This document shows positions 38,062-41,408 of a DNA stretch of 64,000 nucleotides, piece by piece. Each line of letters starts with the position of its first letter. The first letter of the stretch is position 1. Source of the DNA: Bryobacteraceae bacterium. Its GTDB lineage: Bacteria > Acidobacteriota > Terriglobia > Bryobacterales > Bryobacteraceae. The stretch is taken from positions 1-64,000 of the forward strand of contig JACZJQ010000330.1 in assembly GCA_014860455.1 (NCBI GenBank). Direction: 5' to 3'. The notes beneath the pieces are model-generated. The model made no database searches and was not told the DNA's origin. It was given only the letters and a program-made list of their open reading frames with translations. A program made the position numbers and the translations under genes.

Positions 38062-38148
38062 GGCGTCTTTCCATTTTAGTGTGCGCGGACGCTCGTCCTG
38101 CTATTGGATGCGGGGAAGGGGCGTGGCGGAGACGGTACAATTGAAAGA

Positions 38149-39066
38149 ATGTCCCTTGTTGTTGTCGGTTCGGTCGCCTATGACGGCCTCAAGACGCCCG
38201 CCGGAGAGCGGGCCCGCGCCCTTGGCGGCGCAGCCACCTACATCGCCTTGTCGGCGCGGTATTTCACGCCGGCGAGCATAGTCGCAATTGTCGGCGAGGA
38301 TTTCGACCAGCAGGATGTGGATTTCCTGGCATCACGGCAGATTGGCCTGGAAGGGCTGGAACGGGTTCCGGGCAAGACGTTCTTCTGGGCCGGCGTCTAC
38401 AGCGACGACATGAACGATCGCACGACGCTGGCGACGGAATTGAATGTCTTTGCAGGTTTCGATCCGAAGCTGCCGGAGAGCTACCGCAGCGCGCCTTACC
38501 TGATGCTGGGCAACATCCAGCCGGGGTTGCAGCGCAGCGTGCTGGGGCAGATGGCGAGGCCGCGGCTGGCCGGCGGCGACACGATGAATTTCTGGATCAA
38601 CGATTTTCGCGGCGAGTTGCTGGAGACCATCAAGGATTGGGACTTCCTGCTGATCAACGACAGCGAAGCAAAGCTGCTGTCGGGCGAGACGAACTTGAAG
38701 CGGGCGGCGTCGGCGATCCGGGCGATGGGTCCGAAGATCATTGTGATCAAGCGGGGCGAGTACGGGGCGGTGCTATTCCACGAGGGCGGGCATTTCAGCC
38801 TGCCGGGCTACATCCTCGAAACGCTCAAAGACCCGACGGGCGCGGGCGATTGTTTCGCCGGCGGGTTTATCGGGTACCTGGCCTCGCGCGGCGTTTCACC
38901 GCTGGACGGCACGGCGACGCAGGAGGACCTTGCGCGGGCCGTGGTGTATGGATCCGTGATGGGCAGCTTCTGCTGCGAGGAGTTCAGCGTGGACCGTTTC
39001 CGCACGCTGACGCGCGAGGAGATTGACACACGCTTTGACGAGTTCAGGCGATTCACCGCGTTCTAG
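38149..39066 (+). CDS. PfkB-family carbohydrate/nucleoside kinase
   Basis: A 305-residue ribokinase-fold kinase. GGAATYIALSARYF is the N-terminal substrate-lid motif, IVIKRGEYGAVLF the ATP site, and DPTGAGDCFAGGFIGYLA the PfkB signature 2 with the catalytic Asp. The ATG at 38149 (GAAAGA before it) is preferred over an in-frame start at 38104. Its 3' end overlaps the next gene by 44 bases. Substrate is not determinable; the group includes adenosine and sugar kinases. Confidence 0.9.
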   Translation: MSLVVVGSVAYDGLKTPAGERARALGGAATYIALSARYFTPASIVAIVGEDFDQQDVDFLASRQIGLEGLERVPGKTFFWAGVYSDDMNDRTTLATELNVFAGFDPKLPESYRSAPYLMLGNIQPGLQRSVLGQMARPRLAGGDTMNFWINDFRGELLETIKDWDFLLINDSEAKLLSGETNLKRAASAIRAMGPKIIVIKRGEYGAVLFHEGGHFSLPGYILETLKDPTGAGDCFAGGFIGYLASRGVSPLDGTATQEDLARAVVYGSVMGSFCCEEFSVDRFRTLTREEIDTRFDEFRRFTAF

Positions 39067-40576
39067 ACGGCGCTGGACGGCGTGGCTGGCCGTGGCGCTG
39101 CTCGCCGGATTGAGCGCGGCGGCGGTGTTTGTCACGGCATCGCAGGGGTGGACTCTGTGGTACGGCGACGCTGAAGCGCATCTGAACATTGCACGCCGGC
39201 TGCTTGACGCGCGCGAACCGGGTTACGAACAGATCGGCACCGTTTGGCTACCGCTGCCGCATGTGCTGATGGCGCCGTGGGTGCGCGACGATGCTATGTG
39301 GCACAGCGGGATGGGCGGCGTGATTCCGGTGGCGGTGTGTTACGTGCTGGGCGGATTGCTGACGTTTCTCGGGATGCGCAGAATTTTTGAGTGCGAAGCT
39401 GCAGGGTGGGCGGCGCTGGCGGCGTGGGCGTTGAATCCAAACCTGCTGTACCTGCAAAGCGCACCGATGACTGAGCCGATTGCACTCTGCGCGTTCGCAG
39501 GCATGGTGTGGGCGCTGGCGAATGTGAAAGACGGCGGATCGCGGTGGGCGGCGGCGGCGGGCGTGTTTACGCTGATGGGGACGCTGACGCGGTATGAGTT
39601 CTGGTTCCTGATTCCGGTTGTGACGGCGGCGGTATTGTGGGTGTCGAAGAGGCGGCTGAGGGACGCGTTGATTGTTGGGGCGATTGCGTCGGCGGGTCCG
39701 CTCTATTGGCTGGCGCACAACTGGATTCTGTTTTCGAATCCGCTGGAGTTTTACAACGGCTACTGGTCGGCGAAGGCGATCTACCAGCGGGCGCGGGACG
39801 GCGGGATGGCGCCGTATCCGGGCGAGCATGACTGGGCGGTGGCGCTCGAATATGTTCTGGCGGCGGCGCGGCTGTGTCTGGGCTGGCCGCTGGCTCTTCT
39901 CAGCATTGCGGGCGCGGCGGCGGCGATCTGGAAGCGGGCGTGGGTGGCGCTAGCGGTTTGCGCGGCGCTGCCGGCGTTCTATGTGATGAGCCTGTATTCG
40001 TCGGGCACGCCGATCTTCGTGCCGCACCTATGGCCGAACACGCATTACAACACGCGCTACGGAATGGCGGCGATGCCGCTGGCCGCTCTGGCTCTGGCGG
40101 CGCTGGCCGCTGCTGTGCCGGCGAGATGGCGCGGTTGGGCGGCGGGGGTGCTGGCGGCGGTGGTGATCTCGCCTTGGTTGATCCAGCCTGGGCCGGAGAG
40201 TTGGATCTGCTGGAAGGAGTCGAAGGTGAACTCCGAGGGCCGCAGGGCATGGACGAAGGAAGCCGCCGAATACCTGGCGCCGCGTTACAAGGCGGGCGAG
40301 GGCATCTTTACGAGCTTTGGCGACCTGTCGGGCATCTTAAGGACAGCGCGGATTCCGTTGCGCGAAGGGTTTCATGAAGTCGAGCGGCCGCCGTGGCTGG
40401 CTGCGGCGATGAGGCCGGAGACGCTGCTCAAGGAAGATTGGGCGATTGCGTATTCGGGCGATAAGGTGTCGAAGGCGATGCACCGGCTCAGCCGGGGACC
40501 GAGGCGGTTTGAGTGTGTGAGAATGTATGCGGTCAAGGGTTCGCCCGTGGTCGAAATCTGGCGGCACATCCAATAG
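39023..40576 (+). CDS. GT-C-like membrane glycosyltransferase (ArnT/PMT superfamily candidate)
   Basis: A 517-residue membrane protein with about ten hydrophobic segments and a C-terminal soluble tail of some 130 residues. The first periplasmic loop carries YGDAEAHLNIARRLLD, an acidic motif like the one at the first loop of GT-C enzymes using polyprenyl-phosphate sugars. Start is uncertain: TTG at 39023 inside the PfkB gene, or one of the TTG/GTG codons shortly after. Linkage to a sugar kinase fits a glycosylation role, but no family was recognised with certainty. Confidence 0.65.
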   Translation: MTHALTSSGDSPRSRRRWTAWLAVALLAGLSAAAVFVTASQGWTLWYGDAEAHLNIARRLLDAREPGYEQIGTVWLPLPHVLMAPWVRDDAMWHSGMGGVIPVAVCYVLGGLLTFLGMRRIFECEAAGWAALAAWALNPNLLYLQSAPMTEPIALCAFAGMVWALANVKDGGSRWAAAAGVFTLMGTLTRYEFWFLIPVVTAAVLWVSKRRLRDALIVGAIASAGPLYWLAHNWILFSNPLEFYNGYWSAKAIYQRARDGGMAPYPGEHDWAVALEYVLAAARLCLGWPLALLSIAGAAAAIWKRAWVALAVCAALPAFYVMSLYSSGTPIFVPHLWPNTHYNTRYGMAAMPLAALALAALAAAVPARWRGWAAGVLAAVVISPWLIQPGPESWICWKESKVNSEGRRAWTKEAAEYLAPRYKAGEGIFTSFGDLSGILRTARIPLREGFHEVERPPWLAAAMRPETLLKEDWAIAYSGDKVSKAMHRLSRGPRRFECVRMYAVKGSPVVEIWRHIQ

Positions 40577-40583
40577 GCAAACC

Positions 40584-41408
40584 ATGATGAGAATCCCCTT
40601 CACGAAAGCGCACGGCGCGCGAAACGACTTTCTACTGACCTGGTCGCACGAAGCTCCGGCCGAGGCGATGCTGGCAGAGGCGGCAGTGGCGATCTGCGAC
40701 CGCAACGCGGGGGCAGGCGCCGATGGATGGATGCTGGTGACAGGGCCGGTAAGTGGAAAGCCGGCATCGATCCGGCTGTTCAATCCCGATGGCGGCGAGG
40801 CCGAGATTTCGGGCAACGGCACGCGGTGCGCGGCGGCGTTTTTGTGCGACGCGGGGCTGGCGTGCGGGGAGATTGTGATCGAGACGGGTGCGGGCGCAAA
40901 AGAGTTGCGGCTGCTGGAACGGCACGGCCTGAAGTATCAGTTCGAGATGAACATGGGCGAGGCGGTGATCGCGCCGGGCCACCTGCGATTCGAGTTGTCG
41001 TTGCCGGACGGCGCGCGAGAGTGCACGATTCTCTATGTCGGCAACCCGCAGTGCGCCTTCTTCGTCGAGGATTTTGGATTCGACTGGAAAGACATGGGGG
41101 CGATGGTGGAGCGCCATCCGCAGTTTCCCAAACGGACGAATGTCAGCTTTGTTCGCGTGGCCGACCGGCACACGCTGGAGGTCAGGTTTTTCGAGCGCGG
41201 GGCGGGTTTCACGATGTCGAGCGGGACGGGTTCGACGGGCGCGGTGGCGGCGGCGATGGCCCGGGGACTGGTGCAGAGCCCTGTCACGGTGCGCACGCTG
41301 GCCGGGCCGCTGGAGTTCACGGCCGAGGGCAGGATTCTCAGAATGCGCGGGCCGGCTGAGATTGTCGCCGGCGGCGAGTTCTACTTCGAGGCCAAGGCGA
41401 GCGAATAG
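40584..41408 (+). CDS. dapF: Diaminopimelate epimerase homologue with second catalytic Cys replaced by Ser
   Basis: A 274-residue DapF-fold protein, which would convert LL- to meso-diaminopimelate for lysine and peptidoglycan. It has the N-terminal HGARNDFLL, first catalytic Cys82 in ISGNGTRCAAAF, the YVGNPQCAFFV segment, Glu204 in FFERGAG, and substrate-binding residues. However the second half reads GFTMSSGTGS: the Cys of the normal T-x-A-C-G-T-G motif is Ser213. Either activity is changed or the enzyme acts on another substrate (epimerase or dehydratase of the same fold). ATG at 40584; the end overlaps the convergent beta-lactamase gene by 28 bases. Confidence 0.85.
   Translation: MMRIPFTKAHGARNDFLLTWSHEAPAEAMLAEAAVAICDRNAGAGADGWMLVTGPVSGKPASIRLFNPDGGEAEISGNGTRCAAAFLCDAGLACGEIVIETGAGAKELRLLERHGLKYQFEMNMGEAVIAPGHLRFELSLPDGARECTILYVGNPQCAFFVEDFGFDWKDMGAMVERHPQFPKRTNVSFVRVADRHTLEVRFFERGAGFTMSSGTGSTGAVAAAMARGLVQSPVTVRTLAGPLEFTAEGRILRMRGPAEIVAGGEFYFEAKASE

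Follow-up and report, generated by a model that had tools for sequence, protein, structure and literature searches.

The stretch of DNA that we analyzed (the window) comprises 64,000 nucleotides and forms part of contig C102 in a 5.29-Mb draft genome (G000) that is 95% complete. The named relatives closest to it are Candidatus Solibacter, Paludibaculum and Bryobacterales, which places the genome in the Bryobacteraceae (Acidobacteriota). On its forward strand, positions 40584 to 41408 hold an intact open reading frame (ORF) of 274 amino acids, which profile searches, alignment, AlphaFold2 modelling and Foldseek comparison identified as dapF, encoding a Ser/Ser homologue of diaminopimelate (DAP) epimerase. 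Upstream on the same strand lie a PfkB-family kinase gene (38104-39066) and an ORF of 517 amino acids (39023-40576), which ends 8 bases before dapF and is likely to share a transcript with it. The 517-residue product had no Pfam match; the ORF at the equivalent place in the related locus L237 (genome G144) matches PMT_2. A PfkB kinase gene also lies upstream of dapF in L237 and, by sequence likeness, in L235, with the order of kinase and large membrane-type ORF before dapF (38104-40576) being repeated in L237. Downstream, a convergent gene of the class-A-like beta-lactamase family (PF13354; 41381-42256, reverse strand) overlaps the 3' end of dapF by 28 bases with its own 3' end.

The encoded protein scored 181.6 bits against the DapF equivalog profile TIGR00652 (curated cut-off 114.65) and 142.7 bits against PF01678 (cut-off 34.7), bearing out the assignment to DapF made in a preliminary description of this DNA, and the solved structures closest to it in sequence are likewise those of DapFs. 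The AlphaFold2 model (pLDDT 94.6, pTM 0.90) exhibited the two-domain DapF fold: the first 26 Foldseek matches were DapFs and one DapF-like racemase, with TM-scores to the query of 0.81, 0.88 and 0.87 for the first three PDB entries, i.e., 8qzy, 9mro and 3ejx, respectively. Structures of the proline racemase superfamily ranked far below the DapFs in this search, and profile searches returned no match between the window protein and a family of that superfamily. The protein thus has its length, two-domain fold, family score and all DAP-contact residues in common with the canonical Cys/Cys DapFs of Anabaena (9mro), A. thaliana (3ejx), P. aeruginosa (8qzy) and H. influenzae (1gqz), to which it is approximately 32-35% identical in fold alignments; unlike them, it carries serine in place of both catalytic cysteines.

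The catalytic cysteines of Anabaena DapF are Cys75 and Cys224 (PMC12039745). When the Anabaena, Arabidopsis and Pseudomonas enzymes were aligned with the window protein, EMCGNGIRC fell against EISGNGTRC and TLACGTGA against TMSSGTGS. The first catalytic position (Anabaena Cys75, H. influenzae Cys73, motif C-G-N-G) is therefore Ser76, with codon TCG at 40809-40811 of the forward strand, and the second (Anabaena Cys224, H. influenzae Cys217) is Ser213, with codon AGC at 41220-41222. In the AlphaFold2 model the two serines stand directly before helices 77-89 and 214-226, respectively, which is where the catalytic cysteines are placed in known DapFs. The preliminary description had correctly read the second position as Ser213, in GFTMSSGTGS, and its point that a thiol is missing there, and that this matters, stands. 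It erred, however, in counting Cys82 (TGC, 40827-40829, forward strand) as the first catalytic cysteine, since the first catalytic thiol is absent as well. Cys82 is the non-catalytic cysteine of GNGxRC. Cys/Cys enzymes have it too, and four of 68 Ser/Ser relatives carry I, N or A instead. The DapF signature of PROSITE, N-x-[DN]-[GS]-[SENGFT]-x(4)-C-[GI]-N-[GA]-x-R in the form given by PMC8225329, fails on the window protein, in which NPDGGEAEISGNGTR fits except for S in place of C; with Ser76 and Ser213, neither of the two catalytic cysteines expected of a DapF is present. By profile, fold, substrate contacts and genetic context, the protein is a Ser/Ser variant of DapF, and what is new is this natural form of a known enzyme.

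The Ser/Ser pair was found in all Bryobacteraceae loci sampled, comprising 30 fetched family loci and 80 named loci (partly overlapping sets). The named loci were the best 80 of 475 contig-scan matches, and by title and placement these 80 belong to Acidobacteriota, although one is labelled Arcobacter. The closest relative, which is 92% identical, is also Ser/Ser; comparison of the window gene with this relative gave a dN/dS of approximately 0.1, and selection on dapF looks strong. Relatives encode both serines mostly with TCN codons and less often with AGY. The one circumstance that would favor a sequencing or assembly error is that the window derives from a single draft metagenome-type assembly. 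Such an error, for which the preliminary description had allowed, can nevertheless be dismissed, given that relatives read serine at both columns, in the sampled Bryobacteraceae loci and in approximately 40 families, and that TCG at Ser76 lies two base changes from any cysteine codon. The same description had also looked to relatives with serine and known DapF activity; relatives with serine do exist, but no report of an assay on them was found, and a literature search of open papers revealed no published natural Ser/Ser DapF.

Ser76 and Ser213 were invariant in all 68 sequences of the Ser/Ser clade, whereas the neighboring residue 212 was serine in 52 and alanine in 16. Because both serines are fixed while this neighbor varies, a hydroxyl group at each position looks to have been selected. 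This pattern bears on the idea that the protein is dead or structural, retained for instance to bind a partner protein, as E. coli DapF binds RppH. Both catalytic residues have indeed been replaced, and RppH-DapF complexes are known as structures. A dead site should drift, however, rather than fix serine at two positions beside a variable one, and the need for meso-DAP would otherwise go unmet, so that we regard this explanation as scarcely credible.

To assess the substrate pocket, the DAP contacts of Anabaena DapF were taken from PMC12039745. The window protein retains the positions of Anabaena Asn13, Asn66, Gly76, Asn77, Asn164, Asn197, Glu215, Arg216, Gly225 and Thr226. Amongst these (all coordinates on the forward strand), Asn14 (40623-40625) corresponds to Asn13, which contacts the reacting amine; Asn67 (40782-40784) to Asn66, which contacts the distal amine and carboxylate; Asn154 (41043-41045) and Asn186 (41139-41141) to Asn164 and Asn197, respectively, which contact the distal carboxylate; and Glu204-Arg205 (41193-41198) to Glu215-Arg216, which contact the distal amino acid of DAP. 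Across the Ser/Ser clade, Thr215 is sometimes serine, with the other DAP-contact positions being retained. We also compared the 68 Ser/Ser sequences with six Cys/Cys references from cyanobacteria, plants, Pseudomonadota, Bacillota and Actinomycetota. Among positions conserved in at least 90% of the Ser/Ser sequences, only Ser76 and Ser213 were absent from all six references, and this comparison yielded no residue, peculiar to the Ser/Ser clade, that might compensate by activating a serine alkoxide.

These contacts also speak to whether the DapF scaffold has acquired a new function, as an isomerase, a dehydratase or an epimerase of another amino acid. Ser/Thr pairs mark dehydratases in the proline racemase superfamily (PMC4113996), and relatives of DapF have become histidine and diaminobutyrate racemases (PMC11602996, PMC8225329). 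On its change of substrate, however, the diaminobutyrate racemase PddB lost the distal-carboxylate contacts (PMC8225329), whereas Asn67, Asn154, Asn186, Glu204 and Arg205 are all retained here. A new function would, moreover, leave the genome without a DAP epimerase. The different epimerase or dehydratase suggested earlier therefore finds no support in a protein whose DAP-contact residues match those of canonical DapF apart from the two Cys-to-Ser changes, and we consider a new function very unlikely.

We then examined the genetic context of meso-DAP synthesis. The window genome contains a single PF01678 gene, i.e., the dapF described here, and no second copy. On contig C341, a dapE-like M20 gene, lysC, a DapB-like ORF, dapA and dapD follow one another in a row, the M20 gene scoring below the dapE cut-offs and dapB being recognized by eye and position. 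The genome also holds lysA (501 bits; cut-off 298), a DAP-type murE with the DNPR motif (543 bits; cut-off 373) and several aminotransferases that are candidates for dapC. No ddh (PF16654) was detected in the window genome; its product would provide the meso-DAP dehydrogenase route, the only one among those listed in the preliminary description that avoids DapF. Among 297 Acidobacteriota genomes, PF01678 occurred in 280 and a ddh-like match in two, both of family f28. In Acidobacteriaceae-type relatives of family f2, the Ser/Ser dapF is followed directly by a gene scoring above the cut-off for mpl (meso-DAP tripeptide ligase). LysA requires meso-DAP, so something must make it, and the Ser/Ser DapF is the only candidate seen. 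With one dapF, the expected pathway genes in place and no ddh, meso-DAP should come from this enzyme, and the alternative route to meso-DAP that had been proposed is not supported. An extra gene may have gone unseen, given that the genome is 95% complete. On the basis of this context, the window protein likely catalyzes the conversion of LL-DAP to meso-DAP.

DapL was considered separately as an alternative and rejected. The best match in the genome (G000:C108:6575-7717; L037) scored 428 bits where the cut-off is 593, and an alanine transaminase model fitted it better; searches of 61 family genomes gave similar matches in almost every one. Since the product of DapL is LL-DAP, this enzyme would not in any case bypass DapF.

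Across the phylum, Ser/Ser forms of the main clade were found in approximately 40 of the 76 Acidobacteriota families sampled, and Ser/Ser forms of a second lineage in two (f3 and f30). Cys/Ser forms occurred in four families (f8, f19, f41 and f74) and Cys/Cys forms in approximately 30. This survey covered one or a few draft genomes per family. A few genomes contain two dapF forms. The extra Cys/Cys copy of the related genome G025 shows that spare dapF genes occur, though exceptionally.

To determine how often the Ser/Ser form arose, a tree of 45 sequences was built with the catalytic motif columns left out. The main Ser/Ser group formed one clade (support 98/89); a 100/100 branch separated it from the second pair of Ser/Ser sequences (f3, f30). 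Forcing all Ser/Ser sequences together cost 62 log-likelihood units (AU p = 0.00045), and parsimony on this tree gave four state changes. Cys/Ser forms appeared in two places of the second branch, weakly placed. These results indicate that Ser/Ser arose at least twice independently. An earlier tree had shown a single origin, which we regard as an artefact, since the second lineage was then unsampled and the enlarged, motif-free tree rejects one clade. In a larger quick tree, in which both search and resolution were poor, Cys/Cys references fell inside the first Ser/Ser clade; constraining that clade gave a likelihood 69 units better, and placing all Ser/Ser sequences in one clade was non-significant on this poorly resolved tree (p 0.38). 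The claim of at least two origins rests on the 45-sequence tree and not on the quick tree. The second lineage is of the ERGVExETLSSGTG type and is represented by L278 (G200, f3; 1297-2526) and L267 (G268, f30; 922-2244); the same branch includes the Cys/Ser forms and most of the Cys/Cys forms.

One objection to an active Ser/Ser enzyme is that serine is much less acidic than cysteine, so that an alkoxide base would need strong activation. In the mechanism that we propose, LL-DAP would bind in the usual two-domain cleft of the Ser/Ser DapF, and one alpha-carbon would be inverted to give meso-DAP for lysine (via LysA) and peptidoglycan (via MurE). Ser76 and Ser213, each at the head of one of two opposed active-site helices, would replace the thiol/thiolate pair as a two-base proton relay, one serine taking the alpha-proton and the other giving a proton back on the opposite face. 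The alkoxide may be stabilized by the helix ends, backbone amides and a closed, dry pocket. The model for this relay is the Cys/Cys enzyme, whose thiolate removes the alpha-proton while the opposing thiol supplies another, in a pocket that is closed and dry and lies at the ends of two helices (PMC12039745).

Partial precedents exist in related folds. The proline racemase superfamily includes a 4-hydroxyproline 2-epimerase, B9JQV3, that epimerizes with Ser93/Cys236 and so naturally uses serine as one of its two proton-transfer residues (PMC4113996); it differs from the window DapF in belonging to another superfamily branch, acting on another substrate and keeping one cysteine. The trans-3-hydroxyproline dehydratase B9K4G4 (Ser/Thr) resembles the window DapF in lacking catalytic cysteines (PMC4113996), but performs a one-base dehydration, unlike the two-base epimerization proposed here. 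In addition, threonine replaces one cysteine in an aspartate/glutamate racemase (PMC8142540). Each of the H. influenzae DapF variants C73S (2q9h) and C217S (2q9j) carries one Cys-to-Ser change at an equivalent position and is alike in overall fold; these are, however, single laboratory-made changes, whereas in the window protein both positions are changed, naturally and long since fixed. Counting against activity of a Ser/Ser enzyme, Cys-to-Ser changes strongly lower the activity of HisR (PMC11602996), and the activity of PddB was abolished by C101A and C233S (PMC8225329). A Ser/Ser DapF is surprising precisely because such engineered changes cripple related enzymes.

The crippled mutants are also what lends weight to a further explanation, in which the Ser/Ser protein has DAP or a close analogue as its substrate but works slowly or in a side role, while an unrecognized enzyme, e.g., a broad-specificity PLP racemase, supplies meso-DAP; a sequence search leaves room for other genes of this kind. 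Against it, dapF is single-copy, phylum-wide and strongly conserved, retains all DAP contacts and is not accompanied by ddh, and the same shift would have had to occur independently in two lineages. We consider a side role unlikely. From gene content and conservation we infer instead that the Ser/Ser DapF is probably a working, housekeeping DAP epimerase, with its two serines serving as the acid-base pair.

According to textbooks, racemases that need no cofactor work with two cysteines, and how the thiolate can remove a proton with a pKa of ~29 is a long-standing puzzle. On balance, and with some reserve, the comparative data favor the broader view that a fully active DAP epimerase with Ser/Ser in place of the thiol/thiolate pair evolved at least twice in the Acidobacteriota. 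If so, the two-cysteine rule of this enzyme class would not be a chemical necessity, and the pocket, rather than the thiol, would do most of the job. A natural, apparently essential and repeatedly evolved Ser/Ser form would offer a clean comparison with Cys/Cys enzymes. Neither disulfide formation nor thiol-directed inhibitors should affect such a form. Since C. glutamicum DapF is inactivated when its two catalytic cysteines join in a disulfide (PMC5296763), resistance to oxidation is a possible, though speculative, benefit. Annotation rules keyed to the active-site cysteines would misread much of the Acidobacteriota, which are among the commonest soil phyla.

Several loci departed from the common pattern. 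The Cys/Ser loci, i.e., L141 (f8), L258 (f19), L179 (f41) and L285 (f74), retain the first catalytic cysteine and carry serine at the second position; they are possibly halfway stages. LysA matches were absent from the f8 genome and the f19 genomes, and were weak in those of f41 and f74. The Bryobacteraceae genome G025 has, besides its Ser/Ser dapF (G025:C35), a Cys/Cys dapF that adjoins a true dapL (619 bits; L040, G025:C50:14047-16061), and these two genes look like an acquired pair. Finally, within family f23, genome G264 (L254, L299) holds a diverged Ser/Ser copy together with an odd Cys/Cys copy (CSNG ... CCGTG), and genome G226 (L298) holds the odd Cys/Cys copy only.
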